Positions 5,313 through 53,031 of a stretch of 64,000 bases of DNA are shown here, one piece after another (the stretch's first letter is position 1; each line of letters starts with the position of its first letter). The notes below the pieces were generated by a model, which searched no databases, was not told where the DNA came from, and worked only from the letters and a program-made list of their open reading frames with translations. This DNA comes from Variovorax sp. SG517 (GTDB lineage Bacteria; Pseudomonadota; Gammaproteobacteria; Burkholderiales; Burkholderiaceae_C), in contig NZ_JABMJG010000014.1 in NCBI RefSeq assembly GCF_013376045.1, forward strand, positions 1 through 64,000, read 5' to 3'. The position numbers and the translations under genes are program-made.

Positions 5313-5507
5313 ATGTTTCGCTGGCTGATCGTCGTCGTCCTCGCGCTGGTGCTCATGAGCGGCCTGACCGCCTGGCTGCGCCGCTTCGGCTTCGGACGGC
5401 TGCCCGGCGATTTCGAGTTCCGCGCCTTCGGCCGCGAGTGGCAGCTGCCGATCGCGAGCACCATCGTGCTCAGCATGATCGCGTCGCTGGTGGCGCGCCT
5501 TCTGTAG
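5313..5507 (+). CDS. DUF2905 small membrane protein
   Basis: A 64-residue protein with two predicted membrane helices (residues about 4-20 and 46-62) joined by a conserved hydrophilic loop containing GRLPGDF and a short WQLPIAS segment. This is the standard layout of DUF2905, a widespread inner-membrane family of unknown function. It follows hisN by 12 bases in the same direction and could be cotranscribed. Nothing in the sequence suggests truncation. Confidence 0.8.
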   Translation: MFRWLIVVVLALVLMSGLTAWLRRFGFGRLPGDFEFRAFGREWQLPIASTIVLSMIASLVARLL

Positions 5508-5546
5508 GCAGAGCAGAGAAACGAAACAAGGAAAAGACGAACAGCG

Positions 5547-6473
5547 ATGAGAGCCTGCGTAGACATCGGCGGCACCAAGGTGGCCGTGAGCCTTTCCGCT
5601 TCGAGCGACGCGCCGCTGATCGGCCGCCGCAGCGAGCCCACGGCCAAGACCGGCGACAACGACGCGGTGGCGGTGCAGATCATGCGGATGATCGACGAGG
5701 TCTGCGCGGAGCAGGGGGTCGACCCGGCGACCATCGACCGCGTGGGCGTGTCGTCTGCAGGGCCCTTCGAGCTGCATGACGGCAAGGTCGAGCTAGCGAC
5801 GCCCAACATCTGCGGCGGCATCGCCGGCCCGGCGCGAGGCCTCCCCAACAACTGGATGACCGCGCTGATCGAGGCCCCGCTGGCGAAGCGCTTCGCCCGC
5901 GTGCGGGTCGAGAACGACGCGGTGGCCGCGCTGGAGGCCGAGCGCCACTGGGGCGCGCTCAAGGGCATGGACGACTGCGCCTACGTCACCTGGAGCACCG
6001 GTGTGGGCGTCGGCCTGTGCGTGGACGGCCGTGCGCTGCGCGGGAAGAACGGCAATGCCGGCCACGCGGGCCACAGTTTCGTGGTGGACGACGCCAGCGG
6101 CGCGCTGTGCGGCTGCGGCAACGTGGGCGACGTCGAAGGTCTGATCGCCGGCAACTCGATCGCTCGGCGCTTCGGCCAGTCCGCGGCCGATCTTTTCAGC
6201 TCGGCGGCGGCCGGCGAGCGGCACTCGCTGGAAATCGTCGACGCGCTGTGCCGCGTGATGGGCCGCATGCTCTACAACCTGATCGCCACGCTCGACCTGC
6301 AGCGCATCAGCCTGGGTGGCAGCGTGTTCTGGCACCACCGCGACTTCCTGCTGCCGAAGCTGCAGGCGCACGTCGACGGCAAGCTGCCGCCGCTCACGCA
6401 AGGTGTGCGCCTTGTCCCCGCAGGCCTGGGCGACAAGGTCGGCGACTACGCGGCGCTCGCGCTGCTCGACTGA
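5547..6473 (+). CDS. ROK family sugar kinase
   Basis: Cytoplasmic kinase of the ROK (repressor, ORF, kinase) family, 308 residues, expected to phosphorylate glucose or an N-acyl hexosamine with ATP. The N-terminal phosphate-binding loop is DIGGTK at residues 6-11. The ROK signature is present in modified form: GHAGHSFVVDD followed by C188-G-C190-G-N-V-G-D195-V-E197. The usual third zinc cysteine is an aspartate (D195), which may alter or abolish structural zinc binding. No DNA-binding domain is present, so it is a kinase rather than a repressor. A purine-rich stretch precedes the start. The substrate is unknown. Confidence 0.82.
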   Translation: MRACVDIGGTKVAVSLSASSDAPLIGRRSEPTAKTGDNDAVAVQIMRMIDEVCAEQGVDPATIDRVGVSSAGPFELHDGKVELATPNICGGIAGPARGLPNNWMTALIEAPLAKRFARVRVENDAVAALEAERHWGALKGMDDCAYVTWSTGVGVGLCVDGRALRGKNGNAGHAGHSFVVDDASGALCGCGNVGDVEGLIAGNSIARRFGQSAADLFSSAAAGERHSLEIVDALCRVMGRMLYNLIATLDLQRISLGGSVFWHHRDFLLPKLQAHVDGKLPPLTQGVRLVPAGLGDKVGDYAALALLD

Positions 6474-6510
6474 ACGAACGGACGGTCAAACCCACGCAAC
6501 CCGGCGAACC

Positions 6511-8058
6511 ATGACCCCACTGCCTCGCCGTCGCTCGTTTGCCTACCTGCTGTGGCTGGTGGGTGGCTTCATCGGCGCGCATCGTTTCTACTTGGGCAGC
6601 TACCTCGGCGGCGCGGCGCAACTGGTGCTGCTGATGTACGGAATCGCTGGCCTGTCGGGAGGCCGCTTCGGCCTGATGTTGCTGCTGCCGTGGATGCTGT
6701 TCGACCTCTGGTGGATCCAGCAGCGGATGAAGCGGCTGCAACAGCAGGAGCTGGCCGGCGACGACGACGGGGAAGACGAAGCCCCGCCCGCGGCGCGCCA
6801 AGCCTCTCGTCGTTCCGCGCCCAGGGACGCCGCCAAGGACTTCGACCTCGCCGCCCTGGCCGAAGCCAACAAGCTGCAGCAGCGCTTCGTGGCCGCCGCC
6901 GAGGCCGGCGACTGGGCTCAGGCCGTCGCCATCGGCGATCAGATCGTGGCGGCCATGCGCCGCGTGTTCAGGGGGCCGCACCAGAACCTCGCCATGACCC
7001 TGTGCATGCTCGGGCAGGCCTGCTACCAGATCGATGCCTTCGACAAGGCGCGGGCCAGCCTCGAGGAAAGCCTTTCCATCGGCCGCAAGATCGGCATGCC
7101 CGCCGAGGACATGGACGTCGCCCGCAAGGCGCTGGACCTGACGCTGGTCGGCATCGAGCAGCGCAAGGCGCGGGGCGCGACCTCCGACGAAGGGGGCGCG
7201 CTGCTGAACCTGCTCGACGATCGCGAGGCGCGCTACCGCGACGCGCTCGCCCAGGGCGACCTGCCCGGCGCCGAGCAGCTCTGCGCCGAAGCCGTCGCCG
7301 CCAGCCGGCGGCTGCACGCCGGCCCCCACAAGACCGTGGTGCTGCACCTGTCCAGCCATGCCGAGCTGTGCCGCCGGCTGCGCTGGAACGACAAGGCCCA
7401 GGCGCTGGCGGACGAGGCGCTCGCGATGATCGGCCAACTGGGCCTGGACGACAGCTGGCGGCGCGGGCCGACCAACACGCTCGCGCTGCTGCACGCCGCG
7501 GCCGGCCGGGCCGACGAGGCCGAGGCACTCTACAAGAAGACCATCGCCATGGCGGTCTCCGAGGCCGGGGGCGGCTCCAGCGACGGCGTGGTGCGCGCCT
7601 TCAACAACCTGGCCTTCCTCTACGCCGAGTCCGGGCAGGACGTGAAGGCCGAGCTCTGCTATGCCCGCGCCCTGGTGCACCTCGACAAGCTCCCGCCGGG
7701 CGAGGGCGACACCGAGCTGCACTCCGACATGCTCAACAACTTCGCCAGCCTGCACATGTCGCGCCGCGACTTCGTCCGTGCGCGCGAGCTGTTCGAGCGC
7801 TCGCTCGACATCCAGCAGCGCAGCTGCCGCGGCATTTCCGCGGCGGCCGCCAACGCCCACAACGACCTGGGCCTGATCGCGCAGGAAGAGGGCGACCTGC
7901 GCCAGGCGCTCGTGCACTTCAAGCGCACGCTGCTGCTCAACCAGATCTGCACGCCCGACCATTTCAGGAACATCGACAACGCGCAGCGCAACATCGACAG
8001 CGTGAGCATCGCGCTCGCCGCCGTCGCCCGCGCGGCTCGCATGGAACCGAGCACATGA
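6511..8058 (+). CDS. TM2-domain and tetratricopeptide-repeat protein
   Basis: Membrane-anchored protein of 515 residues. Residues about 10-75 form a TM2 domain: two hydrophobic helices with the signature GGFIGAHRFYLGSYLGG, as in TM2 proteins of unknown function. A charged linker follows, then from about residue 120 onward helical TPR-like repeats (for example NNLAFLYAESGQDVKAELCY and NNFASLHMSRRDFVRARELF). These would scaffold protein contacts in the cytoplasm. The ATG at 6511 directly precedes the TM2 domain; the longer frame upstream overlaps the kinase gene and is rejected. It overlaps the next gene by four bases (ATGA). Confidence 0.82.
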   Translation: MTPLPRRRSFAYLLWLVGGFIGAHRFYLGSYLGGAAQLVLLMYGIAGLSGGRFGLMLLLPWMLFDLWWIQQRMKRLQQQELAGDDDGEDEAPPAARQASRRSAPRDAAKDFDLAALAEANKLQQRFVAAAEAGDWAQAVAIGDQIVAAMRRVFRGPHQNLAMTLCMLGQACYQIDAFDKARASLEESLSIGRKIGMPAEDMDVARKALDLTLVGIEQRKARGATSDEGGALLNLLDDREARYRDALAQGDLPGAEQLCAEAVAASRRLHAGPHKTVVLHLSSHAELCRRLRWNDKAQALADEALAMIGQLGLDDSWRRGPTNTLALLHAAAGRADEAEALYKKTIAMAVSEAGGGSSDGVVRAFNNLAFLYAESGQDVKAELCYARALVHLDKLPPGEGDTELHSDMLNNFASLHMSRRDFVRARELFERSLDIQQRSCRGISAAAANAHNDLGLIAQEEGDLRQALVHFKRTLLLNQICTPDHFRNIDNAQRNIDSVSIALAAVARAARMEPST

Positions 8059-8501
8059 GCGTCGGCGCCGCCTTCTACGCCCTCGACCGCTACCGACTGC
8101 GCGCGCTGGTGATCGATCCGTCCACCGTCTCGGGCTTCCTGAACTCGCCCGCCGCGCAGGGGGGCCCGCACGACAGCCAGACGGTGGAGCAGGCCTGGGA
8201 CGTGGTGCGCACGCTGATGCCCGAGGCGGTCGACGGCGAGGAGCTCGACGGCACCGACGGACTGGGCTGCATCTATCTCACGGCCGCCCACGTCGAGCGC
8301 GCGGCCCAGCGGCTCGCCGAATGCGACGTGGCCGAGCTCGTCGGCCGCTTCACGGGCGAGCCGGCGAAGTTTGGCGAGCTGTACTGGGCCAAGGTCTGGC
8401 AGGACGGCGCGCAGGACCTCGCGGACTTCATGGAAGGCGTCAAGCGCTTCTTCGCCGGCGCAGCCTCGAGGCGCGACGCGGTGCTGTTCTATATCGTCTG
8501 A
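8055..8501 (+). CDS. DUF1877 (YfbM-like) protein
   Basis: A 148-residue soluble protein recognised as DUF1877/YfbM-like by its helical N-terminus with a conserved pattern ending in the segment GLGCIYLTAAHVERAAQRL and a C-terminal alpha/beta part finishing in RRDAVLFYIV. No function is established for the family. The ATG overlaps the stop of the TM2-TPR gene, so both are made from one transcript, and they may act together. It converges on the MocR gene with only six bases between the stops. Confidence 0.7.
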   Translation: MSVGAAFYALDRYRLRALVIDPSTVSGFLNSPAAQGGPHDSQTVEQAWDVVRTLMPEAVDGEELDGTDGLGCIYLTAAHVERAAQRLAECDVAELVGRFTGEPAKFGELYWAKVWQDGAQDLADFMEGVKRFFAGAASRRDAVLFYIV

Positions 8502-8507
8502 ACGGGC

Positions 8508-9953
8508 CTAGCCCGCCGGCCGCACGGCCGAGACGATCTCGCCGAGCCGCCGCAGGCCGGCCTCGACGGCATCCGAATACGGCCAGCCGCAGTTGATGCG
8601 CAGGTAGTTGTCGAAGCGCCCCGAGTTCGAGAACTGCGCGCCCGGCGCCACCAGCATCTGCTCGCGCAGCGCCGCGTCGAACACGTCCACCGACGAGCGC
8701 TGCCCCGGCAGTTCCACCCACAGCTGGAGCCCGCCGCGCGGCAGGTTCATGCGGGTGCCCGCCGGGAAGTACCTGGCGATGGCGTCCGCCGTCTGGTCGC
8801 GCTGCACGTGCAGCCGCTCGCGCAGCCTGCGCAGGTGGCGGTCGTAGGCGCCGCTCGCGATGTATTCGCCCGCGGCGATCTGCGCCAGCGCCTCGTTGTT
8901 GCGGGTCTGGGCGTACTTGAGCATCTCCACCTGCGCATGCCAGCGCCCGGCGGTGATCCAGCCCAGCCGCAGCCCCGGCGCCAGCACCTTGTGCAGCGAG
9001 GCGCAATAGATCACGTTGCCCGTGCGGTCCCACGACTTCAGGGCGCGCAGCGGCGCGTCGCTCTCCACGAGGTCGCTGTAGGTGTCGTCCTCGACCAGCG
9101 CGATGCCGTGGTTCTCGCACAGGTGCGCGAGCCGCTGCTTGTGGCTGTCGGGCATCATGCTGCCGATGGGGTTCTGCAGGTGCGGCACCACCACCACGGC
9201 CTTGATGTCGTCATAGGTGTGGATCGCGAGGTCGAGTGCTTCCAGCGAGATGCCGGTCTGCGGGCTGGTCGGGATTTCCAGTGCACGCAGCCCCAGGCTC
9301 TCGAGCACCTGCAGCAGGCCGTAGAAGGTGGGCGATTCCACTGCCACGGTGTCTCCGGGCTTCGCGATGGCGCGCAGGGCGAGGTTCAGCGCCTCGATGC
9401 AGCCGTTGGTGACGAGCACCTCGTCGGGCGGCACCGTCATGCCCACGCGCAGGCTGCGCTGGGCCAGCGCCTCGCGGAACTGCTGGTGGCCCTTCTGCGA
9501 CGAGGCGGTGGTCAGCAGCTCGGGCCGCTGGCGCAGCGCGCGCGTCATCGAGTTGCGTAGCGCCTCCGCGGGATACAGCTCGGGCGCGGCGCGGGCGATC
9601 GCGAAGTTGAGCTTCACGCCGGTGTGCCGGCCGCGCGCCATGAAGTTGGCCATGCGCGCGCGCATGCTCACGAACTGCGCCGGGTCGGGCGGCACGTGGG
9701 CCACCGGCTCTTCCATCGGCGCGATGGCCAGCCGCTGCGGCCGGCGCACGAAATACCCGGAGCGGTCGCGCGCCTCGACCCAGCCGTCGCTTTCCATGGC
9801 GCGGCAGACCTGCAGCGCGGTCGACAGGCTGATGTCGTGCAGCCGCATCAGGCTGCGCAGCGAGGGCAGCCTGTCGCCCTGCTTGAGCGAGCCGGTGTGG
9901 ATCGCATCCACGTAGTGCGCGGAAAGCTGGCGGTAGAGCGGTAGCGAATCCAT
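8508..9953 (-). CDS. MocR-type GntR/aminotransferase transcriptional regulator
   Basis: Transcription factor of 481 residues fusing an N-terminal GntR winged helix (residues about 5-75, with LPSLRSLMRLHDISLSTAL) to a fold-type I aminotransferase domain. The PLP-binding lysine lies near residue 322 in SLHKVLAPGLRLGW, and upstream segments TNGCIEALNL and VVVPHLQNPIGSMM match the cofactor site. MocR proteins sense PLP or amino-compound ligands and often control the divergent neighbour. The ATG at 9953 begins MDSLPLYRQL, a standard start; an upstream ATG at 10016 would add 21 residues. The divergent target is presumably the DUF2917 gene at 10126; repeat sites between them support this. Confidence 0.88.
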   Translation of the reverse strand: MDSLPLYRQLSAHYVDAIHTGSLKQGDRLPSLRSLMRLHDISLSTALQVCRAMESDGWVEARDRSGYFVRRPQRLAIAPMEEPVAHVPPDPAQFVSMRARMANFMARGRHTGVKLNFAIARAAPELYPAEALRNSMTRALRQRPELLTTASSQKGHQQFREALAQRSLRVGMTVPPDEVLVTNGCIEALNLALRAIAKPGDTVAVESPTFYGLLQVLESLGLRALEIPTSPQTGISLEALDLAIHTYDDIKAVVVVPHLQNPIGSMMPDSHKQRLAHLCENHGIALVEDDTYSDLVESDAPLRALKSWDRTGNVIYCASLHKVLAPGLRLGWITAGRWHAQVEMLKYAQTRNNEALAQIAAGEYIASGAYDRHLRRLRERLHVQRDQTADAIARYFPAGTRMNLPRGGLQLWVELPGQRSSVDVFDAALREQMLVAPGAQFSNSGRFDNYLRINCGWPYSDAVEAGLRRLGEIVSAVRPAG

Positions 9954-9985
9954 GGGGTCGATGTTCCCCGCATCGGGCATCCGAA

Positions 9986-10044
9986 AACAGATGCAGTTGG
10001 TTGGGAAAACGACCATAACAGATGCCTTTGCGCCTCCTCTGTTA
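9986..10044. promoter_or_regulatory. Candidate MocR operator cluster
   Basis: The 9-mer AACAGATGC occurs twice in direct orientation (9986-9994 and 10017-10025), 31 bases apart, about three helical turns. An inverted copy, TCTGTTA, follows at 10038-10044 and pairs with TAACAGA at 10016-10022. Direct plus inverted half-sites between a MocR gene and its divergent neighbour are the usual architecture for this family. Confidence 0.55.
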
Positions 10045-10125
10045 CGGCTGCAATAGCCATTGCGTGTGCCTGTTTTCCGGGCGCCGGAATTCCTACGATG
10101 AAGCCTCGTTCAACCGAGGTTCGCC

Positions 10126-10467
10126 ATGATCACCACCCTCTCCCAAGCGCCCGATTCCATCGTTCTTGAGCCCGGCCAGTCGCTGCGCCTGCCGGTCGAT
10201 GCAGGCGCGTGGCTGCAGCTGGCCGAAGGGCGCGCCCGCGTGGTCTCGCCGCCCGGCTGGCTGGGCGAGACTGTGTTCATGACCGAGACGCCGCTCGAGG
10301 AGGGCGACGTGCACCGGCTGCCGCACGGCGGCTGGATCGAGGTGAGGGCGCTGACGCCGGTGCACCTGAGGGTGCACGCGCCGCTGGCCGCGCAGCGGGC
10401 GTCGAGGGCGGCTGCGGCCGAGGCCCGGCCCGTCATGCGGTTCGTGCGGCTGCTGACCGGCTGGTAG
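10126..10467 (+). CDS. DUF2917 domain protein
   Basis: A 113-residue protein consisting mainly of a short beta-rich cupin-like DUF2917 domain: EPGQSLRLPVDAGAWLQLAE, then GRARVVSPPGWLGETVF and DVHRLPHGGWIEV. The family has no known biochemical role; its shape resembles small sensor or stability domains. It is read divergently from the MocR gene across a 172-base region with candidate operators, so MocR probably controls it. A second DUF2917 gene at 24133 is likewise divergent from a regulator. Confidence 0.75.
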   Translation: MITTLSQAPDSIVLEPGQSLRLPVDAGAWLQLAEGRARVVSPPGWLGETVFMTETPLEEGDVHRLPHGGWIEVRALTPVHLRVHAPLAAQRASRAAAAEARPVMRFVRLLTGW

Positions 10468-10511
10468 CAGCCGCGATCGCTGGGGAGCGCCCGGACTTGC
10501 CCGGGCGGGGC

Positions 10512-11897
10512 TCAGCGCTCGCTCGCCGCCTGGCGCAGCGCATCGAGGAAGCTGCGCCGCCACCAGTGGATGTCATGTTCGCGGATGCGCGACAGCAGCT
10601 TCTGGTGCCGCTCGCGCCGCTCTTCCAGCGGCATCTGCAGCGCCTGCTGCACGGTCTGCGCCGTGCCGTGCGTGTCGTAGGGGTTCACCAGCAGCGCCTC
10701 CCTGAGCTGCTCGGCCGCGCCGGCGAAGCGCGACAGCACCAGCACGCCCGGGTCGGCCGGGTCCTGCGCCGCGATGTATTCCTTGGCGACGAGGTTCATG
10801 CCGTCGCGCAGCGGCGTCACCAGCCCCACGGCCGCCGCGCGGCACAGCCCCGGCACGCGCTTGCGCGCCACCATGCGGTGGATGTAGCGCACCGGCATCC
10901 AGTCGAGCTCGCCGTAGTCGCCGTTGATGGCGCCGCACAGCGATTCGAGCTCGCGCCGGATGTCGGCATACGCGTCGACCGTCTCGCGCGTGGGCGAGGC
11001 GATCTGGATCAGCGTGGCGCTGCGCCGGTTCTCGGGGTAGTTCGCCAGCAGCTCGCGGAACGCGCGCACCCGCTGCGGGATGCCCTTGGAGTAGTCGAGC
11101 CGGTCGATGCCCATGAGCAGCCGGCGCTGCGAGTACTCGCGCTTCATGGTCTCGTACATGTCGCGCGACTCCTTCGCATGCGTGAGTGCGGCGAACTCGT
11201 CCACGTCGATGCCGATGGGGAAAGCGGCGGCGCGCACCGTCTGGCCGTAGGCGCGGTACATCTCGCTGCCCAGGTATTCGCCATGGGCCTCGTTGCGCAC
11301 GTAGTGCTCGAAGTGCTGCACGTCCTGCTGCGCCTGGAAGCCGATCAGGTCGTACGAGAACAGTGAGCGCATCAGCCACTCGTGCTGCGGAATGGCCGCG
11401 ATGATGATCTGCGGCGGCAGCGGAATGTGCAGGAAGAAGCCGATGCGCTGCCTGCAGCCCATGGCGCGCAGCTCGGCGGCCAGCGGGATCAGGTGGTAGT
11501 CGTGCACCCAGATGATGTCGTCGTCCTTCAAGAGCGGCAGCAGCTTGCGCGCGAACAGCTGGTTCACGCGCCGGTAGCCGCCCACGAAGCCGGCGTCGAA
11601 GTGCGCGAGGTCCAGGCGGTCGTGGAACACCGGCCAGAGCACGTCGTTGCTGTAGCCGAGGTAGTAGCTGTCGTGGTCCTCGCGGCTCAGGTCGATGGTG
11701 GCGAGCGTGACCTTGCCGGCCTGCTGCCTGTGCAGCTCGCCCTCGCCGGTCGGGCCGCCCTCGACGATCTGTCCGCTCCAGCCGAACCACAGGCCGCCGC
11801 TTTGCTGCAGGCTCTCGCCCAGCGCCACGGCCAGGCCGCCGGCGGCGGGCTTGCGCGGGTCGGCCACGCGGTTGGAAACGACGACGAGGCGGCTCAT
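10512..11897 (-). CDS. otsA: Trehalose-6-phosphate synthase
   Basis: GT20 glycosyltransferase, 461 residues, joining UDP-glucose to glucose 6-phosphate to give trehalose 6-phosphate in the cytoplasm. Recognised by [10 protein letters not shown] at the start, the acceptor-site segment GLWFGWSG, the conserved [14 protein letters not shown], the [10 protein letters not shown] motif, [12 protein letters not shown] and the donor-site [12 protein letters not shown]. The length and ATG at 11897 fit the family. It is the last gene of an otsB - GH15 - otsA block, 55 bases after the GH15 gene. Trehalose made here would serve osmotic and desiccation protection. Confidence 0.95.
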
Positions 11898-31019: not shown

Positions 31020-33098
31020 ATGAACGAAATCTACTTGCGCCGGCGCATGCGACTGCATGTGCGCTCGGGTGAGGGGGGCGTCACCCCCGAGCAACTTGCC
31101 TCGATGCTCAAGGAGATTGAGCCGCTGGGGTTTGTGCTGGCCGACGAGGTGGTCTCGCGGTTGTCTTCCCTGCCGTTCGAGGATGCTGCCCGTACGCTGC
31201 GTGGCGTGATGCAGGACATGCGCAAGCTTGTGGGTGCACATCGCCAGCACGAGCCTTTGCACCCCGGCTTCCCGAGCCAGGTGATGGCGCTGTCGGAAGC
31301 GCAGCTGTACCTGAATGCGCTCAGCCACTATGTGAGCCTGCGCCGCATGCCCAACACGGACGAGAAGCGTCCACCGCTGCTTCACAAGCGATACCCGCGC
31401 ATTGTGGAGTTGGGTTCTGTAGAGGACTTCGAGACGATCTGCACGAAGCTGGCGGGCTCGGCGGTGTCCCTGTCCGAGCAAGACCGGGCCGACCTCATCT
31501 GGTTCGTGCGTCAGTATCGGGCTGACATTTTTCGATTGTTGCCCGCGAAGTTCCCGTTCAAGGAGAACCTGGCGTTACTGGGGTCACAGCTGGTCATCCA
31601 TGTGGGGACCGACGAGCGCACACACCGTTTCGTCAAGGACAACTTCCGCACCGCGACCGATGTGCTGCGCCTGGCCGTGGCTCTCTCGGGAGGCGATGTG
31701 TCGCTGGCTGCCTCCACGCGCTTCGTCTCTTTCTCGCGCCACCAGCGCAGGATGCTGCTGGCATTGCTCGAGGACTGCGGTGGCTTGATCGAGGACATGC
31801 ATCGAAGGATTGAGCCGTTTAAACGACTGGGCGAGCGGCTGCACCCCGGCGAACAGGCCGAACGCTATCCCAAGGCTGCTGCGGCGTTCGGCGTTGTCCG
31901 CAACGGCCTGCCAGTCGCAAGCTTCAATAGCCGCGTTGAACAGGCATTGGCCGCGGGGGATATCCGAGGCGCGGCGCAGGTACTGGAAGACCGACCTGGG
32001 GAATATGCGCGTCGGCTCGATGCATTGCTGCGAAAGAGCGAAGAGCCCCAAGCGCTTCTGCAGCGCTTCGCCGAGTTGGCCCCGCGGGTGTCGACGACGG
32101 TCTTGCTGCAGGTCCTGGCGCATTTCCAAGCTCGGGCAGACGAAGGTCGGCTGCGCGTGTTCTTTCCGAAGGGCGATGTTGCGAAGGTCTTTGCACTGGA
32201 GGACCGCCGCGCCGCGATCGACCTGGATACCGCGCAACGGGTGGTGCACGGTTGCAAGCAGGCGCTGTTGGCAAGGTTTGCTCAACTGCCTCCCCTGGGC
32301 CGCTGTCATGTCGATCCGGCGCTGGCGAGTTATGTGGTGCCGATGTCGCAGCGTGCTGCATCCAAGACGTTGCGGACCTTCGCGCGGGGCAGCCGAATCC
32401 CGATGCCGGATGGCGGGTTCGTGCGTCTCTTCCTATGGTGGATGAATGGCCGTTCGCGGGTCGACATCGACCTCTCCGTGGTGTTCTACGGCGATGACTA
32501 CCGCTACGTGGACACCATCGCTTTCTACAACCTGCGTGGCTGGGGCGCACACCACAGTGGCGACATCGTCGACGCGCCGAAGGGGGCCGCCGAGTTCATC
32601 GATCTGGACGTGCAGTTGCTGCGCTCCAGAGGCGTGCGTTTCGTGATGATGTGTATCAACAGCTACTCGGGTCAGGCCTACTGCGATCTGCCGGAGTGCT
32701 TTGCGGGCTGGATGTCTCGCAAGAACCTCAATTCGGGCGAGCCCTTCGAAGCCCGCACGGTGGTGGACCGTGTCGATCTTGCCTCCGACACCCGGATCAG
32801 CCTGCCTCTTGTGCTGGACCTGGAGCGTCGTGAAGTGCTATGGGCAGACTTCGCGCTGCGGGACCACCCGCGCTTCTCCAACAGCGTGGCGGGCAACCTG
32901 GCGGGCGTCTCGCTGATGCTGCGCGCTTTGCACGAGATGGTGAAACCCGACTTGCACACGCTGATGTCCTTGCACGCCCTTGCCCGCGGTACGTTGGTGG
33001 ATACGCCGGCGGAGGCGGAGACGAGATTCGGAGTGGGTCGTGGGTGCACTGTTACGCCATTGGATGGTGACGAAATCCGTTCCAACTATCTGAAGTAG
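31020..33098 (+). CDS. TerD-domain stress protein, MXAN_6230/SCO0854-like
   Basis: Large cytoplasmic protein of 692 residues. The C-terminal part (about 467-650) is a TerD-like domain: RLFLWWMNGRSRVDIDLSVV, WGAHHSGDIVDAPKGAAEF and AYCDLPECFAGWM. The long helical N-terminal region carries FPSQVMALSEAQLYLNALSHY, ATDVLRLAVALSGGDVSLA and the landmark KRLGERLHPGEQAERYP, which I associate with the MXAN_6230/SCO0854 family in tellurite/stress (Ter) systems. Family members are often called RING proteins, but I see no paired CxxC/H pattern here. TerD domains bind Ca2+ and accompany chemical-stress or phage-defence modules. Codon use is less GC-biased than in flanking core genes, suggesting transfer. 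No other ter gene adjoins it. Confidence 0.75.
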   Translation: MNEIYLRRRMRLHVRSGEGGVTPEQLASMLKEIEPLGFVLADEVVSRLSSLPFEDAARTLRGVMQDMRKLVGAHRQHEPLHPGFPSQVMALSEAQLYLNALSHYVSLRRMPNTDEKRPPLLHKRYPRIVELGSVEDFETICTKLAGSAVSLSEQDRADLIWFVRQYRADIFRLLPAKFPFKENLALLGSQLVIHVGTDERTHRFVKDNFRTATDVLRLAVALSGGDVSLAASTRFVSFSRHQRRMLLALLEDCGGLIEDMHRRIEPFKRLGERLHPGEQAERYPKAAAAFGVVRNGLPVASFNSRVEQALAAGDIRGAAQVLEDRPGEYARRLDALLRKSEEPQALLQRFAELAPRVSTTVLLQVLAHFQARADEGRLRVFFPKGDVAKVFALEDRRAAIDLDTAQRVVHGCKQALLARFAQLPPLGRCHVDPALASYVVPMSQRAASKTLRTFARGSRIPMPDGGFVRLFLWWMNGRSRVDIDLSVVFYGDDYRYVDTIAFYNLRGWGAHHSGDIVDAPKGAAEFIDLDVQLLRSRGVRFVMMCINSYSGQAYCDLPECFAGWMSRKNLNSGEPFEARTVVDRVDLASDTRISLPLVLDLERREVLWADFALRDHPRFSNSVAGNLAGVSLMLRALHEMVKPDLHTLMSLHALARGTLVDTPAEAETRFGVGRGCTVTPLDGDEIRSNYLK

Positions 33099-33581: not shown

Positions 33582-33720
33582 TTGACCGTGACAGGGGTCT
33601 TCTGCCATCACAGACCCAAGGTCAAATGGACGCCCGCATCTCCGATGACCCAGAAGTTGTACGGTCCGGAACTGGCCGACTTGGTGTTGGTCGTCGAATC
33701 TCCGAATGCGTCTGCTAGAA
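33582..33720 (+). pseudogene. Coding remnant with ELADLVLVVE motif
   Basis: An open stretch reads HHRPKVKWTPASPM and then YGPELADLVLVVESP, a pattern typical of a genuine beta-strand/helix junction in proteins of defence or accessory loci, but I cannot name the family. It has no plausible start, is only about 45 codons, and runs into the opposite-strand remnant. A neighbouring frame at 33329-33480 (FDEAVRSPAAALSLPPPNPL) may be the same broken gene upstream of a frameshift. It could also be chance. Confidence 0.3.
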
Positions 33721-34026
33721 AGGCTCGCTTCTGCCCGCGAGCAGGTTGGTCATCTTGTGAATGACGAAGGCCTCCACCATGTGCACGCCCCGGTAGGACA
33801 GGGTTTCGTGGCGGTCATTCGTGTTGCTGTCCGAGCGATAGAAGTTGCCGCGCAGCTGATTGGCCCGCTCGGCCATCCGGTCGTTGTTCGTGATGCGCCA
33901 CCTGACCTTGTAGGCGTTCGCGAGCGGCATGCCGGAACTGCTGACCGCCTCGAACCGGATGGCGCCGCCGCGCGCGACAGGGCTCTTGGCTCTTGGCTGG
34001 TTGAACCAGCGATATGGTGGTGAGAG
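33715..34026 (-). pseudogene. Remnant of CBASS CD-NTase C-terminal sensor domain (AGS-C-like)
   Basis: About 104 codons without a start context. The sequence contains YKVRWRITNNDRMAERANQL, RGNFYRSDSNTNDRHETLSY and RGVHMVEAFVIHK, then ends after AGRSEPF. This order (W-x-[IV]-x-N, RG-x-[FL]-Y-x-S-D, then [YF]-[RK]-G-x-H-x-VEAFV) matches what I know of the adenylyl/guanylyl cyclase and SMODS C-terminal sensor domain of cyclic-oligonucleotide synthases. An in-frame TGA at 34027-34029 closes it upstream and no catalytic nucleotidyltransferase motif (GS...DxD) is found toward 34200. It is therefore a decayed 3' end of a CBASS-type defence gene. Confidence 0.6.
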
Positions 34027-34202
34027 TCAGCGAGTACACCGATTCATTCGTCGGCGAGTCAAGATCACACACGGCTTTCGGCTGCCTCATCAATTCGGGG
34101 GATGTTTTCCCTGGTCTGCTGCCGCAAGATGAAGCGCGGCCTTCGGATCCTTTTGGGCATGAAGGATCTCGTTCATCCGGAGAAGCAGATCAGGAGGGAT
34201 TC

Positions 34203-35363
34203 ATGGCAAACAGGCTTTTCATGCGCTTGGTACGGTGCGGTCGCTTCATCGCATTGCGGGGCTTCCCCGTTCTGGTGGCACTTGCGCTGGCGGCCTGCGC
34301 GACCGCGCCGGCTCCGCTGATCGTTCCCGCGGGAATCCCCCGGATCGAGGACGCGAAGAAAGGGCATCCGGTAAAGGTCGCGGTGTTCTATGGAACGAAT
34401 CGCACCCCGGTCGCAAGGCCCGTCTACTTCGACGACAACGAGGCAACGCAAGTCCAGTATGGGTATACCCTGGTCAGCCTGCCGTGGATCCATGAAAAGG
34501 GTGAGGTCGAAACGCCGACCGTCTTCGACCGGGACAAAAGCAACCCGGACAAGTTCATGCTTCTCCTCGACGCGGTGCCCTTGAGGCCCGAGGAGTTCAT
34601 CGTGCAGGTGAATCGATCCTTCGGCGCCGCTCCCCGAAAGAACATCGGCTTCGTATTCGTGCACGGCTTCAATGTCCCTTTCCGCGATGCCGCGCTGCGA
34701 ACGGCGCAACTCGCCGTGGACATGCAACTGCCCGTGGTGCCGGCCTTTTTCAGTTGGCCCTCGAATGGCGAGTCGCCCGTCGAGGGAACCGCCAACTATT
34801 TGCGGGACTTCACCAAGGCCATCAGCTCCATTCCCGCGCTCGAGGAGTTTCTCGTCCAGTTCGGAGAGAAGACCCGCGCCGATGAAATCTTCGTCCTTGC
34901 GCACAGCATGGGCTCCTGGACGACGACCCATGCACTGATGTCTCTCGCCTTGAATCGCCCGAAGCTGACGGCAAAAGTGAAGCTGGTTACGCTGGCGGCT
35001 CCCGACATCGATGCCAGGGTGTTCACGGTGCAGATCGCGCCAGCGATGGTCAAGGCCGGCTACGCTGTGAACCTCTATGCATCGGACAACGACAAGGCGC
35101 TGAACGCTTCCAGGATCGTCTGGGGGAGGGCTCGCGCGGGCATTGCGGGCACGGCGCTGGCACTCTCGCCCGGCATCGAGACCGTCGATGCGAGCGACAT
35201 TAGCACCGACGTTCTCGGGCATTCGAAGTACGGCGATTCACCCGTCCTGCTGAGGGACATGGCTCTCTTCTACAGCGGTATGCGCGCGAGCCAGAGGCCT
35301 GGATTGACCATGAAGCGCCTTGGCGAGCAGAACTATTGGCAGATCCAGACTCCGCCGCGCTGA
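34203..35363 (+). CDS. DUF900 alpha/beta-hydrolase lipoprotein
   Basis: Exported lipoprotein of 386 residues. The signal peptide ends in LAAC with lipidated C32. The mature protein has the DUF900 landmarks VAVFYGTNRTP, a strand-loop FVFVHGFNVPF (oxyanion region), FFSWPSNG and the nucleophile elbow AHSMGSW with S235. Such proteins are serine hydrolases of unknown substrate. GGAGGG precedes the ATG at 34203; a longer reading upstream overlaps the decayed CBASS remnant and is rejected. It is the last gene of the island-like segment. Confidence 0.83.
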   Translation: MANRLFMRLVRCGRFIALRGFPVLVALALAACATAPAPLIVPAGIPRIEDAKKGHPVKVAVFYGTNRTPVARPVYFDDNEATQVQYGYTLVSLPWIHEKGEVETPTVFDRDKSNPDKFMLLLDAVPLRPEEFIVQVNRSFGAAPRKNIGFVFVHGFNVPFRDAALRTAQLAVDMQLPVVPAFFSWPSNGESPVEGTANYLRDFTKAISSIPALEEFLVQFGEKTRADEIFVLAHSMGSWTTTHALMSLALNRPKLTAKVKLVTLAAPDIDARVFTVQIAPAMVKAGYAVNLYASDNDKALNASRIVWGRARAGIAGTALALSPGIETVDASDISTDVLGHSKYGDSPVLLRDMALFYSGMRASQRPGLTMKRLGEQNYWQIQTPPR

Positions 35364-48146: not shown

Positions 48147-48261
48147 GGCTGCGCCTCGCGTGGCGGCCGGGGTGCGGTCAGCCAACGGTCAGGCTCGCCC
48201 GAGGTCCCATGGATTGACGGGATGGCGGCCCGTGCCGGGGCCTGTCATGATTCGCGGCTGC

Positions 48262-51200
48262 ATGAATCACGACGCGAAGAATCCTCTTGCAGATCTGTTG
48301 AACCGCGCCAGGCAGGCCCTGGCGGACCAGGCGGGCGCGATGCCCGCCGCGGCTGCGGCCACAGCGCAAGCGGGTTGCGTGGTCTTCTTCGCCATCGGCG
48401 AGGACGGCAGCCGGGCCCGCGTGGCCTCGGGCCGCGGCGCGGACATCGAAGCTGCATGGCACGCCGCCGCCGAAGCCATCGCCACGCAGGCCAGGCGAGG
48501 TGCGCAGCCGCCGCAGCGCCTGCGCGCGGAGATCGTCGACAAGGTCGTGCCCATGCGCTGGGGCGACCTGAAGGCCAGGCTCGCGCAGACCAAGCGCAAC
48601 TACTTCAACGAGGGCATTGCGTTCGACGCGAACTTCGAGTTCGCCCTGCTCGCGCAGGAAATGCACGGCAGCGCCGTGCTCTACAACGGCGACGTGGACC
48701 ATGCCGAGCCCAACACCGGCAACCTGCGCCTGCACACCCGGCGGCGCTTCGGCCGCGAGCTCGACTTTCCTTCGGACGACGCTGCTCCGGTGTGGTGCTT
48801 CACCACGCGGGCCGTGTACGTCGACGCGAAGGGCGCGTGGCCCATCACCGCCGAAGGGCAGGCCGCGGGCTTTCGCGAACTGAACGACTGGAACGCGCAG
48901 CAGGTGCATGCGCTGATCGACGACGCGGGCAACTACCTCGCCGAACAGGTCAAGCCCACGGGCGAGTTCCACTACGGCTGGTTCCCCTGCTTCGACCGCA
49001 CCATTCCCACCTACAACACGCTGCGCCACGCCAGCTCGACCTACGCGATGCTGGAGGCCTGGGAGCTCACGCGCAACGACACGCTGAAGGCGGCCATCGA
49101 CCGCTCGCTGGCCTTCCTCACCGGCACGCTGATCCGCCCGGCCAACCTGCCCGACGGCACGCGCGCGGCCTACTTGCTGGACATCGGCAACGAGATCAAG
49201 CTCGGCGGCAATGCGGTGTGCCTGCTCGCGCTGGTCAAGTACACCGAGCTCACCGGCGACGAGCAATACCTGCCGCTGCTGGAGCAGCTCGCGCTCGGCA
49301 TCCGCCACATGCAGGACCCGGAGACCGGCAGCTTCGTGCACGTGCTCAATGCGCCCGCGCTCGACGTGAAGGACAGGTTCCGCGTCATCTATTACGACGG
49401 CGAGGCCGCCTTCGGGCTGATGCGCCTGTACGGCCTCACGCGCGACGCGCGATGGCTCGCGGTGGTGGAGAAGGCCTTCGAGCACTTCATCGCCGCCGAG
49501 CACTGGCGCGCGCACGACCACTGGCTGAGCTACTGCGTCAACGAGCTCACGCGCTACCGGCCCGAGCTGCGCTACTACCGCTTCGGCCTGCAGAACGTGG
49601 CCGGGTATCTCGACTTCGTGCTGGAGCGCATCACCACCTTCCCCACGCTGCTCGAGCTGATGATGGCCGCGCGCGACATGGTGTTGCGGCTGGAGGCCGA
49701 CCCAGAGCTGCGCCCGTTGCTGGCAGGGCTCGATCGCGACCGCTTCGACCGCGCGCTCGAGTACCGCGCGCGCTACCTCGCCAACGGCCACTTCTGGCCC
49801 GAGCTGGCGATGTTCTTCCGCAACCCGGCGCGCATCGCGGGCTCGTTCTTCATCAAGCACCACAGCTTCCGCGTGCGCATCGACGACGTGGAGCACTACC
49901 TCTCGGGCTACGTGGCTTACCACCGCATGCTGAAGGCGGGCGAGGCCGCCGCAACAGCAGATGCGGATGCCGATGCCGTGAGCGGCGCCACGGGCACCGT
50001 CGCATGGGGCGGCGACGTGAACCTTGCGCGCCGCCAGCACTACCGGCTGAAGGACCTCGGCGGTGCGCACAGGATGCTCGGCGACATCACCGCGCTGCGC
50101 GAGGCCGACCTGGGCATCGTGAACCTCGAATGCGTGGTCGCCACCGTCGGCGAGCAGGGCGTGGACAAGGACGAGACCGGCCCCTACTACTACCGCGCGC
50201 GCCCCGAGATGCTCGCGGTGCTGACGGAGGCCGGCATCGGCATGGTGGCCACCGCCAACAACCACAGCGGCGACTACGGCCCCGAGGCGCTGATGGAGCA
50301 GCACGCCCTGCTGCAGGTCGCGGGCATCGCGCAGGCCGGCACCGGCCGCACGCTGGAGGCAGCGCTGCGCCCGGCCTTCCGCCGCGCCGGCGGCGTGCGC
50401 GTGGCGCTGTTCTCGCTCGATGCCACGCAGCCGCGCTTTGCCGCCACCGCCACGCGCGCGGGCGCCGCATGGCTCCCGCTCGAAGACCCCGCCGCATGGA
50501 CCGCCACGCTCGCGCCGCGCATCGAGGCCGCGCGCCGCGAGGCCGACGTGGTGCTGGTGGCGGTGCACTGGGGCGCCAACCTCGAGACCGAACCGTCGCC
50601 GGCCGAGATTGCCGTGGGCCATGCCATCGTCGATGCCGGTGCCGACGCGGTGCTCGGCACTTCGGCCCACGTGCTGCAGGGCATCGAGATCCACAAGGGC
50701 AGGCCCATCCTGCACGACGCCGGCGACCTGCTCTTCGACTCGGTGCGCAACGACTTCGGCGACTCCGGCGTGTTCACGCTGAAGCTGAGCCCGCGCGGCG
50801 TGGAGGAAGTGAGGTTCACGCCCGTCGGTGTGGGCTTCGGCTTCTCGCGGCAGCTCGAAGGCGACGAGGCGCGCGCTTTGAGCGAGCGCTTCGCCGCGCA
50901 GTGCCTCGCGCTCGGCACGCGGATGAGCCAGCTGCCGGACGGTCGCTGCGCGGTTCGCCTGTCGCCGCCCGAGCGGCCCGCGTTCCATGCCGACCCGGCC
51001 GGTGCCGGCGCACGGCACGTTCAGCCTGTTCCAGCCATTGCGCCCCTGCCGGCGCCGCGGCCCGAATGGCTGGTGGACGAGGTGCCCGCGGAGGCACGCA
51101 TCGCGCCGCTGCAGTTCGGCCCCCTGCGCCTGGTGGGGCTGCGCTGCGTGCCGCGGCAGATCGTCGGGCGGCGCATGCTGTGGGTCGAATCCTTCTGGAG

Positions 51201-53031
51201 CGCCGACGCGCCCGTTTCCGCAGACCTGCGCCTGCACTTCCGCGCGCTACCGATGCGAAGCAAGCGCATGCCGCCGTGGGGCGAGGGCATGGACCACGAT
51301 CCCTGCGACTGGATGTGGCCCACCAGCCGCTGGGAGCCCGGGCGCATCTACCGCGACCGCTACGGGCTGCGCCCGCCGCGCGCGGGGCTGCTCGAAAGCG
51401 ACGTGCTGCAGATCGAGGTGTGCTTGCGCGGCGAATGGCCCGGGCTGCCGCCCGCGCGGCGCCTCGCGCTGTGGTGCGGGCTGCGCGTGCCCGATGCGCC
51501 CGTGCCGCTGCCGCAGCGTCCGGCGCCGGTGCTCTCGGCCGACCGCCCCGGTGCCGGCCCCGAAGCCGCGCCCGTGTGGACCGCCGAGGAACTGCAGCGC
51601 GTCACCGGCGGGCGCTGGCTGGTCGAGCCGCCGCCGGGCTGGTTCGCCAACTCGGTGGTACGCGGGCCCTTGCACATGTCGCTCCTGCCCGGGCCCTCGC
51701 TCTTCATCGCCTCCGACTACCGCACGCTGGCCGTGCACGAGAGCTACAGCAAGCCGCGCGCCGACAACTGGGACCGCCATCTCGAACTGCCGCGGCTGCA
51801 CTCCGCGCTGGCCGGCGCGGTGGTTGCGCATCCGGTGGAAGGGCTCGACCCGGCCTTTCCGCTGCTGCAGGCGGACGACCCCATCGCCGCGATGATCGCC
51901 ATGGGCGCCGCGGCGCGGGCGCGCTACAAGGGCATGGTGGTGGGCGTGACCGGCACGGTCGGCAAGTCGTCCACCATCGCGATGCTGCGCGACCTGCTGC
52001 CCGAGCGCGCGCGGGTACACACCACCATCGACAACTACAACTCGCGCGTCGGCGTGCCGGCCACGCTCGCGAACCTCGGGCCCGACGTGGACGTGTGCAT
52101 CCTGGAGATGGCGCAGAGCGGCCTGTGGATGGACCGCGGCCCGATCTCGCTGGTGGCTCGTCCGCACGTGGCCATCGTCACCGAGATCGGCCTGTCGCAG
52201 ACCCGGCAGGCATCGACGCTGGAGCTCACGGCGGCCTACAAGTCGCGCATCTTCCTCGGGCTGGAGCCCGGCGGCGTGGCGATCGTGCCCGACCACATTC
52301 CCTGCCTGCGCCAGGTGGTGGACGCCGCCGCGCTCACGGCCGGCGCGATCTGGGTGGTGGGCAGCGGCCCCGACGCCAACGTGCGCATGCTCGACGCGCG
52401 GCCCGAGCCCGGCGGTGGCTGCCGCGTGCGGGTTGCCGTTCCCGGACGCATCTACGAGTACCTGTTCCCTGTCGAAAGCGCGGGGCTGGTGCGCAATTCG
52501 CTGCTCGCATTCGCGGCGCTGCTGGCCATGGGCTTCGACGGCGAGGCCGCCTGCGCGCGCATGCCGCGGGTGCGCCTGCCGGCATCGGTGATGCAGGTGC
52601 GCGCGCTGCGCACGCAGGCCGGCGTGCAGGCCACGCTGATCGACGACAGCTGGAACGCCGAGGTCATGTCGATGCGCAACGCCATGGATTTCGTGCGCAC
52701 CTGGCAGCGCGCGGACAACGGCCCGGTGCTGCGCAAGATCGGCGTGCTGGGGCGCATCGTCAACCTCGGCAAGGATGCCGAGGCCATGCACCGCAGCCTG
52801 GCCGCGCCGCTGCTGGCCTCGGGCATCGGGCACCTCGTGACGCACGGCGAGGAGATGCGCTGGCTGCGCGAGGAAGTGCCTGCCGAGCTGCTCGGGCCGC
52901 ACTTCGACGATGCCGCGCAGCTCGCGCTCTACCTCGGCGGCGTGCTGCGCAACGGCGACCTCGTGCTGGTGAAGGGCGACCGCGTCGGCTCCGACTTCGG
53001 CAGCATCCCGGGGCTCCTGCAAAGCCTATGA
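48262..53031 (+). CDS. Giant toroid-CapA-Mur ligase fusion protein
   Basis: A 1589-residue protein without signal peptide. Residues 1-230 are of unknown fold. Residues about 233-560 look like an alpha/alpha toroid (GEFHYGWFPCFDRTIPTYN, then LGGNAVCLLALVKY). Residues about 577-880 form a CapA metallophosphatase-like domain: AWGGDVNLARR, VNLECVVA, ATANNHSGDYGP, VAVHWGANLE and GTSAHVLQGIEI. About 880-1220 is a beta-rich region I cannot name. From about 1224 a Mur-ligase/CapB-type ATPase has GVTGTVGKSST, HTTIDNYNSRVGVP and DDSWNAEVMSM. CapA and CapB-type domains make and export poly-gamma-glutamate, so I infer an ATP-driven amide ligation for a surface polymer, unproven. The ATG at 48247 is an alternative start. 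It overlaps the next gene by four bases. Confidence 0.82.
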   Translation: MNHDAKNPLADLLNRARQALADQAGAMPAAAAATAQAGCVVFFAIGEDGSRARVASGRGADIEAAWHAAAEAIATQARRGAQPPQRLRAEIVDKVVPMRWGDLKARLAQTKRNYFNEGIAFDANFEFALLAQEMHGSAVLYNGDVDHAEPNTGNLRLHTRRRFGRELDFPSDDAAPVWCFTTRAVYVDAKGAWPITAEGQAAGFRELNDWNAQQVHALIDDAGNYLAEQVKPTGEFHYGWFPCFDRTIPTYNTLRHASSTYAMLEAWELTRNDTLKAAIDRSLAFLTGTLIRPANLPDGTRAAYLLDIGNEIKLGGNAVCLLALVKYTELTGDEQYLPLLEQLALGIRHMQDPETGSFVHVLNAPALDVKDRFRVIYYDGEAAFGLMRLYGLTRDARWLAVVEKAFEHFIAAEHWRAHDHWLSYCVNELTRYRPELRYYRFGLQNVAGYLDFVLERITTFPTLLELMMAARDMVLRLEADPELRPLLAGLDRDRFDRALEYRARYLANGHFWPELAMFFRNPARIAGSFFIKHHSFRVRIDDVEHYLSGYVAYHRMLKAGEAAATADADADAVSGATGTVAWGGDVNLARRQHYRLKDLGGAHRMLGDITALREADLGIVNLECVVATVGEQGVDKDETGPYYYRARPEMLAVLTEAGIGMVATANNHSGDYGPEALMEQHALLQVAGIAQAGTGRTLEAALRPAFRRAGGVRVALFSLDATQPRFAATATRAGAAWLPLEDPAAWTATLAPRIEAARREADVVLVAVHWGANLETEPSPAEIAVGHAIVDAGADAVLGTSAHVLQGIEIHKGRPILHDAGDLLFDSVRNDFGDSGVFTLKLSPRGVEEVRFTPVGVGFGFSRQLEGDEARALSERFAAQCLALGTRMSQLPDGRCAVRLSPPERPAFHADPAGAGARHVQPVPAIAPLPAPRPEWLVDEVPAEARIAPLQFGPLRLVGLRCVPRQIVGRRMLWVESFWSADAPVSADLRLHFRALPMRSKRMPPWGEGMDHDPCDWMWPTSRWEPGRIYRDRYGLRPPRAGLLESDVLQIEVCLRGEWPGLPPARRLALWCGLRVPDAPVPLPQRPAPVLSADRPGAGPEAAPVWTAEELQRVTGGRWLVEPPPGWFANSVVRGPLHMSLLPGPSLFIASDYRTLAVHESYSKPRADNWDRHLELPRLHSALAGAVVAHPVEGLDPAFPLLQADDPIAAMIAMGAAARARYKGMVVGVTGTVGKSSTIAMLRDLLPERARVHTTIDNYNSRVGVPATLANLGPDVDVCILEMAQSGLWMDRGPISLVARPHVAIVTEIGLSQTRQASTLELTAAYKSRIFLGLEPGGVAIVPDHIPCLRQVVDAAALTAGAIWVVGSGPDANVRMLDARPEPGGGCRVRVAVPGRIYEYLFPVESAGLVRNSLLAFAALLAMGFDGEAACARMPRVRLPASVMQVRALRTQAGVQATLIDDSWNAEVMSMRNAMDFVRTWQRADNGPVLRKIGVLGRIVNLGKDAEAMHRSLAAPLLASGIGHLVTHGEEMRWLREEVPAELLGPHFDDAAQLALYLGGVLRNGDLVLVKGDRVGSDFGSIPGLLQSL

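Follow-up and report, generated by a model that had tools for sequence, protein, structure and literature searches.

In the genome of Variovorax sp. SG517, one gene within the 64,000-nucleotide stretch analysed here (contig NZ_JABMJG010000014.1, hereafter the window) encodes a 1589-residue fusion of four modules: a toroid-containing module termed T, a CapA/PGA_cap metal domain, a module termed X, and a MurF-like ligase. Relatives of T are often encoded beside surface adhesins bearing X-Asp dipeptide repeats, and the enzyme that accompanies T has been exchanged repeatedly. Our preferred reading, held with modest confidence, is that the window protein would be a cytoplasmic writer that modifies the (Ala/Ser-Asp)n tracts of surface adhesins, with its MurF-like domain amidating Asp.

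Linkage of T to X-Asp-repeat adhesins

A tract of at least six X-Asp units was present at 27 of 46 T loci, against none of 20 control stretches of 20 kb from five toroid-bearing genomes (Fisher, 1.8e-6); the 46 loci are a convenience set that includes L118-L122, picked for their striking plasmid annotation, and type I secretion seeds were absent from the controls too. In a less selected phylum sample, T was found in 14 of 398 genomes. The T loci of Proteobacteria often carry type I secretion genes, and those of Bacillota LPXTG/Sdr proteins. Annotated plasmid neighbours of T comprise an SdrD-like protein in Staphylococcus epidermidis, an LPXTG protein in Listeria, a BapA-type adhesin with type I secretion in Agrobacterium, a BapA-type protein in Sulfitobacter, and pieces of a "clumping factor" with type I secretion in Klebsiella. 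When the DNA was read, four of these five plasmid stretches, all but that of Klebsiella, proved to hold (Ala-Asp)n or (Ser-Asp)n tracts that exceed 100 units.

Similar arrangements recur with different enzymes. S. epidermidis has SdrF, with 185 units, along with T and a gene for a GT4 glycosyltransferase; in Staphylococcus simulans, an Sdr protein with a 601-unit Ala/Ser-Asp tract is followed by T and then by a Mur ligase gene. Nitratireductor combines a 223-unit tract, type I secretion, T and a MurF-like gene, and Enterococcus gilvus has a 26-unit tract followed by T. In Agrobacterium Tul002, a 251-unit tract and type I secretion precede T fused to several ATP-grasp domains. The T protein at L215 8761-13740 (+) has 1660 residues with one YheCD-type and further RimK-like ATP-grasp domains, and adjoins a BapA-type adhesin whose Ala-Asp tract has 251 units. 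The four-module fusion itself lies beside an (AD)n tract at 5 of 11 loci outside Variovorax, in Xylophilus, three Microbulbifer and one gamma-proteobacterial metagenome-assembled genome (L035/L077, taken as one count, L066, L068, L071 and L081).

Where CapA-X-Mur lacks T, or the fusion lacks a tract, a T gene may lie elsewhere in the genome. T was found elsewhere in all five T-less CapA-X-Mur genomes checked (L087, L088, L089, L098 and L099), and a second T in all three orphan-fusion genomes checked outside Variovorax (L067, L073 and L076), two further genomes giving only the T already known. Among seven T stretches from six of these genomes, five had an (AD)n tract, secretion genes or both; the remaining two are contigs of 3.7 and 5.7 kb. 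Over 57 loci, the recurrent neighbours were a type I ABC cluster (31, possibly including other ABC proteins), HlyD (24) and TolC (22); a LapD-like gene adjoins one T-Mur protein, that is, T with a Mur ligase domain. The linkage between T and adhesins is well supported.

Partner enzymes and the residue before Asp

Pfam analysis of the 46 T proteins revealed Mur_ligase_C in 25, PGA_cap in 7, YheCD ATP-grasp in 3, GT4 in 3, and Peptidase_S11 and VanY in one each, so that the partner of T may be a Mur ligase, an ATP-grasp ligase, a GT4 glycosyltransferase, or none. On a T tree of 45 loci plus the window (L040, with T broken over two frames, excluded; 14 of 43 inner branches weak), the partner labels need 20 changes against a minimum of 5; shuffled labels need 23.5 on average and as few in 2 of 200 shuffles. 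The well-supported branches alone force at least 10 changes for Mur and at least 6 for CapA-X-Mur. The partner of T has therefore been swapped repeatedly. In a Desulfovibrionaceae metagenome-assembled genome (L111 8-4864, +), the modules are reordered as T-Mur-CapA-X.

Partners were counted as fusions or as neighbouring genes (GT4: L118 and L214; Mur: L212, L213 and L039). Ser precedes Asp (92-99%) at all three GT4-partner loci with a tract, about two independent cases given that L118 and L214 belong to the same species, whereas Ala mainly precedes Asp at 22 of 23 loci with a Mur or ATP-grasp partner, a count that includes L039, where Ala has a plurality (0.40) (Fisher, 0.0015, for Ala/Ser versus partner). 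The T-alone loci L154 and L096 (98% Ser) stand outside this count. A glycosyltransferase requires the Ser hydroxyl, and a carboxylate-amine ligase requires only Asp. We propose amidation of the Asp side chain mainly because GT4 pairs with Ser-Asp and the ligases with Ala-Asp.

The same loci can be read in terms of glycans. T would then be a glycan-active toroid (AGE/GH76/GH88-like) working on an adhesin glycan, and the MurF-like domain would decorate that glycan, for example at a uronic acid carboxylate, instead of Asp. The T fold matches sugar epimerases and glycoside hydrolases, the T of Listeria gives weak Pfam matches to GH88/GH127/C5-epimerase, and some loci have GT4 partners; however, (AD)n tracts offer no hydroxyl acceptor and ligase-partner loci favour Ala over Ser (glycosyltransferases near ligase loci were not systematically counted). 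We regard the glycan explanation as improbable.

Structure and catalytic residues of the fusion

The gene was confirmed to be real, conserved and intact. Its frame comprises 1589 codons and a stop, and the guanine-plus-cytosine (GC) content by codon position,.73/.49/.92 over the longer GTG frame starting at 48160, is a normal coding pattern (window GC 68.8%). The ATG at 48262 is supported as the start by seven homologous frames that begin exactly at residue 1 (L049, L053, L054, L056, L057, L060 and L064). Full-length homologues with 72-95% identity are found in many named Variovorax and in Pseudacidovorax, the top named match being V. paradoxus 110B (95%), and others with about 48-59% identity in Xylophilus, Xenophilus and Microbulbifer. 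This distribution, in many Variovorax and beyond, excludes a chance frame or an assembly join. A phage origin was set aside: 30 phage records match, with query coverage of at most 59% among the matches listed.

The initial annotation had described a fusion of toroid, CapA and Mur-ligase/CapB-like domains with two unassigned regions, and much of this holds. The segments it gave to CapA (577-880) and to the Mur ligase (1224-1589) match PGA_cap at 579-826 and Mur_ligase_M/C at 1229-1573, and the toroid is borne out by its AlphaFold2 fold and by Foldseek, without Pfam support. The unassigned regions had to be redrawn: residues 1-230 are part of T by the structure model, and 880-1220 comprise module X plus the N-terminal domain of the MurF-like ligase. 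The CapB-like label was dropped and a CapB-like ligase rejected, the best NCBIfam models and folds being those of MurF.

Table 1. Modules of the window gene, with positions in the window
Feature	Residues	Position	Strand	Basis
Whole gene, T - CapA - X - MurF-like fusion	1589 in all	48262..53031	+	frame, Pfam, codon GC, homologues
T module, the part common to adhesin-linked relatives	1-565	48262..49956	+	AlphaFold2, Foldseek
CapA/PGA_cap metal domain	579-826	49996..50739	+	Pfam, MslH alignment
Module X	870-1100	50869..51561	+	alignment, AlphaFold2 model, Pfam
MurF-like ligase	1149-1582	51706..53007	+	NCBIfam, Foldseek
Intact ligase P-loop	G1231..K1235 S1236	51952..51969	+	residue alignment

In the AlphaFold2 model of residues 1-571 (predicted local distance difference test, pLDDT, 94), T folds into an N-terminal alpha/beta part (about 1-210) followed by an (alpha/alpha)6 toroid (about 212-565). 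A Foldseek search against the PDB gave AGE-family epimerases and GH76 as the best matches, together with GH88-type toroids; the best E was 6e-7, with template-modelling (TM) scores of 0.47 by query and 0.67 by target, the best among the matches listed. The window T matches no Pfam family at E≤1, and a profile search yielded no convincing PDB sequence relative (best E 0.04, an aminodeoxychorismate lyase entry). The toroid is thus confirmed only at the level of the modelled fold, not by sequence: T shares the (alpha/alpha)6 toroid of AGE/GH76/GH88 enzymes but not a sequence family match.

The CapA domain matches PGA_cap with an E of 1.7e-57 (195 bits against a cut-off of 27). Its closest solved relative by Foldseek is MslH, a lasso-peptide C-terminal epimerase whose catalytic and metal residues are reported to be D11, E44, N87, H88, D91, H259, H261 and H295 (PMC10406935). 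Seven of the eight have equivalents in the window protein (D585, E623, N667, H668, D671, H769 and H803), D11/D585 being paired via the GD motif outside the HMMER alignment and the remainder by alignment, and the metal ligand H261 is replaced by Gly771. Across 21 aligned proteins, each of the seven is kept in 19 or more. The MslH equivalog model gives 82 bits and does not reach its cut-off of 700. The domain therefore resembles MslH, of calcineurin-like fold, in its fold and in seven of eight residues, but differs in the H261 replacement and in architecture. Module X is beta-rich in its AlphaFold2 model, carries a conserved H-D-P-C-D-W..P...W motif and has no match in Pfam. The model of CapA-X-Mur (residues 566-1589) has a pLDDT of 86 and a predicted TM score of 0.55, with the relative placing of the domains unsure.

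Within the ligase, Pfam places Mur_ligase_M at 1229-1419 (E 1.1e-19) and Mur_ligase_C at 1456-1573 (E 8e-7). NCBIfam returned 13 models at E≤1; MurF models were the best over the ligase, spanning 1149-1582, and no PgsB/CapB model was among the 13. The MurF cut-offs are not reached (TIGR01143, 184.5 versus 288.6; NF010693, 191.3 versus 544). The fold is MurF-like (TM score by target 0.85 to 4qf5), the MurF signature DDS(W/Y)NA..SM is kept, and K1235 of the P-loop, E1282, K1327, D1461 and N1465 are invariant in all 21 aligned proteins. The ligase thus shares fold, P-loop, conserved Lys and signature with MurF, but differs by its fusion to T, CapA and X, its divergent N-domain and its sub-cut-off scores. 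Because the catalytic residues of CapA and ligase are retained, both enzymatic halves look active.

The MurF resemblance raises the further thought of a peptidoglycan side-branch, in which the MurF-like domain would still act on cell-wall precursors or on D-Ala-D-Ala, coupling, for instance, the adhesin to wall peptides. The retained signature would fit, as would the D-Ala-D-Ala carboxypeptidase domains Peptidase_S11 and VanY, found in one T protein each, and a weak S11 match in a neighbouring ligase (L091). We nevertheless consider it very unlikely, given scores far under the MurF cut-offs, a separate and presumably housekeeping MurF homologue on contig C10 of the same genome, and the poor alignment of the ligase N-domain with that homologue.

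An adhesin-linked T-Mur paralogue in Variovorax

Among 61 Variovorax genomes, T is present in 33, the N-terminal region of the adhesin in 30 and module X in 28, the latter two sets lying wholly inside the 33 T genomes, with co-occurrence counts inflated by shared ancestry within the genus. At 29 Variovorax T-Mur loci (L005 and 28 others), a tract is present in 27, and ABC and HlyD genes in all 29. In every one of these 29 adhesin-linked T-Mur proteins both catalytic lysines are lost, the P-loop Lys to Ser or Gly and the K1327 equivalent to Asp; P-loop loss was called by pattern and then checked residue by residue. Both lysines are also lost at L235 and L236, from two orphan-fusion genomes, and at L038 and L040. 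T-Mur is intact in, for example, Agrobacterium, Halomonas, Lysobacter and V. soli (L095), the last lying outside the 29 (genome G227, without a match to the adhesin N-terminus). Judged from these residues, the ligase domain of the Variovorax T-Mur paralogue is dead. Given this dead ligase and the intact window fusion, the fusion would be the active ligase of the system in most Variovorax, acting in trans.

The SG517 genome carries, on contig C1, two related adhesins, one with an X-Asp tract of 62 units and the other with one of 31, separated by about 43 kb. The adhesin at L005 12723-17483 (-) is the only one of the two beside T-Mur and secretion genes; the other tract lies at L153 near 7610 (+).

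Cap pathway and free polymers

Two observations of the initial annotation, that capC is missing and that the fusion has no signal peptide, were upheld: a genome-wide search for CapC (PF14102) gave 0 matches and was positive in the Bacillus subtilis control, and hydropathy revealed no signal-peptide-like or membrane segment in the window protein (best 19-residue mean 1.64). The protein resembles the CapB/CapC/CapA poly-gamma-glutamate synthase in having a CapA-family domain and a Mur-fold ligase, but differs in the absence of CapC, of a membrane segment by hydropathy, and in the MurF-like nature of its ligase. That annotation had suggested a cytoplasmic peptide or amide polymer synthase outside the Cap pathway. 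A cytoplasmic, non-Cap, amide-forming enzyme remains our view, but a free polymer is no longer the likeliest product: the linkage of T to X-Asp-repeat adhesins points to a protein substrate instead.

For the enzyme to make a free peptide or amide polymer or a small molecule of Cap- or cyanophycin-like type, exported or stored, the adhesin would have to adjoin merely through a shared role in biofilms. The pairing of CapA with a Mur ligase recalls CapA/CapB, the RimK-like ATP-grasp genes that adjoin the fusion at L147 and at two Microbulbifer loci (L066 and L093) recall cyanophycin synthetase, and genes with non-ribosomal peptide synthetase condensation domains lie beside the Sulfitobacter T-Mur. 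Yet CapC is missing from the genome (dedicated polymer exporters were not searched for), the linkage to repeat adhesins spans two phyla and several partner enzymes, and the residue before Asp tracks the type of partner. A free product seems unlikely to us.

Neighbouring genes

No local operon partner of the gene was seen within the window. LysR, EamA and oxidoreductase genes lie upstream, and a sugar cluster downstream (aldose epimerase, SMP30, SDR, aldehyde dehydrogenase and periplasmic binding protein). In some other Variovorax, the same chromosomal site holds T alone or T-CapA-X.

Outside Variovorax, Microbulbifer fusions adjoin a RimK-like ATP-grasp gene with acylphosphatase and a transglutaminase-like gene. 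The T-CapA-X-Mur fusion at L147 lies beside an acylphosphatase and two large proteins, each of which has two ATP-grasp regions (5362-11841, +). A protein of about 330 residues stands beside T, T-Mur or CapA-X-Mur at 11 of 57 loci (L144 6523-7539, -; L121 11083-12069, +; L146 7990-8952, +) and probably belongs to the system as well; Pfam matched neither of two members scanned, and the L150 member lies within a 1022-residue protein with a GT2 domain. Another protein, of about 630 residues, lies near CapA-X-Mur or T at 5 of 57 loci (L091 8013-9959, +; L090 8073-9965, +), and three scanned members have no Pfam match.

Elsewhere in the window, a 71-residue AGS_C fragment (33715-33930, -) is located between genes at 31020-33098 (+) and 34014-35363 (+), whose third-position GC is unusually low (0.75-0.77); one of them has no Pfam match and the other is a DUF900 hydrolase. 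AGS_C is a sensor domain of CBASS-type nucleotidyltransferases. The region looks like a foreign island or a decayed defence gene.

Putative mechanism

In the model we prefer, the X-Asp tracts of the adhesins would be modified in the cytoplasm before export. T would be the constant part, with the task of recognising the X-Asp repeat or of acting on it first. The MurF-like domain would use ATP to activate a carboxylate, most likely that of the repeat Asp side chains, and join to it an amine, either an amino acid or a short peptide. The CapA/MslH-like domain might serve as a metal-dependent partner, trimming or epimerising the residue once added, and module X may help to bind. In Variovorax, the substrate would be the (AD)n adhesin encoded elsewhere with type I secretion genes and the dead T-Mur, to which the window fusion would supply the ligase in trans. 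In this chemistry, the adhesin as substrate, the Asp carboxylate as acceptor, the identity of the amine and the roles of CapA and X are what we infer.

Several observations weigh against this model. No X-Asp tract or secretion gene lies near the window fusion or in the analysed flanks of other Variovorax fusions, and the Variovorax co-occurrence counts are inflated as stated above. Tracts are missing from 19 of the 46 T loci and from 6 of the 11 fusion loci outside Variovorax (L067, L073, L076, L093, L111 and L147, some on short contigs); none was found beside two GT4 fusions (L037 and L121), beside the three YheCD ATP-grasp fusions of the 46, or next to any of seven CapA-X genes without adjoining T. 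Of the 12 non-Variovorax T stretches in the phylum sample, several of them short contigs, only 4 have a tract and 1 more has secretion genes. The type I secreted adhesin that adjoins T in Acinetobacter has no X-Asp tract, and L041, the exception to the Ala rule, combines a 98% Ser tract with a Mur partner. T stands alone in Listeria, Enterococcus, Acinetobacter and, at the window's own site, some Variovorax, and the latter genomes keep only the dead T-Mur; ligase activity is therefore not needed everywhere.

A broader and more doubtful proposal, offered tentatively, is that T proteins are the hub of cross-phylum modification systems in which swappable writers (MurF-like, ATP-grasp or GT4) act on ribosomally made X-Asp repeats. 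The Mur and ATP-grasp writers would add an amino acid or short peptide to each Asp, with the CapA/MslH-like domain setting stereochemistry, yielding a templated, cyanophycin-like comb polymer at the surface. Such a hub in Proteobacteria and Bacillota, with ligases mostly at Ala-Asp and glycosyltransferases at Ser-Asp, leads to the prediction that Asp side chains are amidated. Ala-Asp repeats are frequent in the adhesins found here and have no hydroxyl acceptor; we know of no modification of them. If the proposal is true, Mur-type ligases would join the protein-modifying enzymes, proteins annotated as "poly(glycerol-phosphate) alpha-glucosyltransferase" or "Mur ligase family protein" would gain a function, and the extreme dipeptide repeats of biofilm adhesins would be easier to explain.

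Comparison with known systems

Searches of open-licence papers, taken without supplements, listed no title or opening of an abstract describing T, a Mur ligase with an adhesin as its substrate, or a modification of Ala-Asp repeats; nor did those searches yield a toroid hub, MurF/CapA/ATP-grasp writers, or an Ala-Asp substrate class. Repeat modification by neighbour-encoded enzymes is itself of an already known kind: the glycosyltransferases SdgA/SdgB and GtfC/GtfD have their genes next to those of staphylococcal SD-repeat adhesins, whose repeats they glycosylate (PMC3794999, PMC7029136). The T systems are similar in that enzyme genes lie beside a dipeptide-repeat adhesin and some T are fused to, or adjoin, GT4. 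In contrast, the window protein (T, CapA, X and MurF-like) contains no glycosyltransferase, and Ala-Asp predominates in the tracts of ligase loci. With cyanophycin synthetase, which holds ATP-grasp and Mur enzymes in one chain, the proposed common chemistry would be Asp side-chain amidation on a repeating backbone, and in some relatives ATP-grasp and Mur enzymes occur next to each other; the window protein differs in having no ATP-grasp domain, and its backbone would be made by the ribosome.

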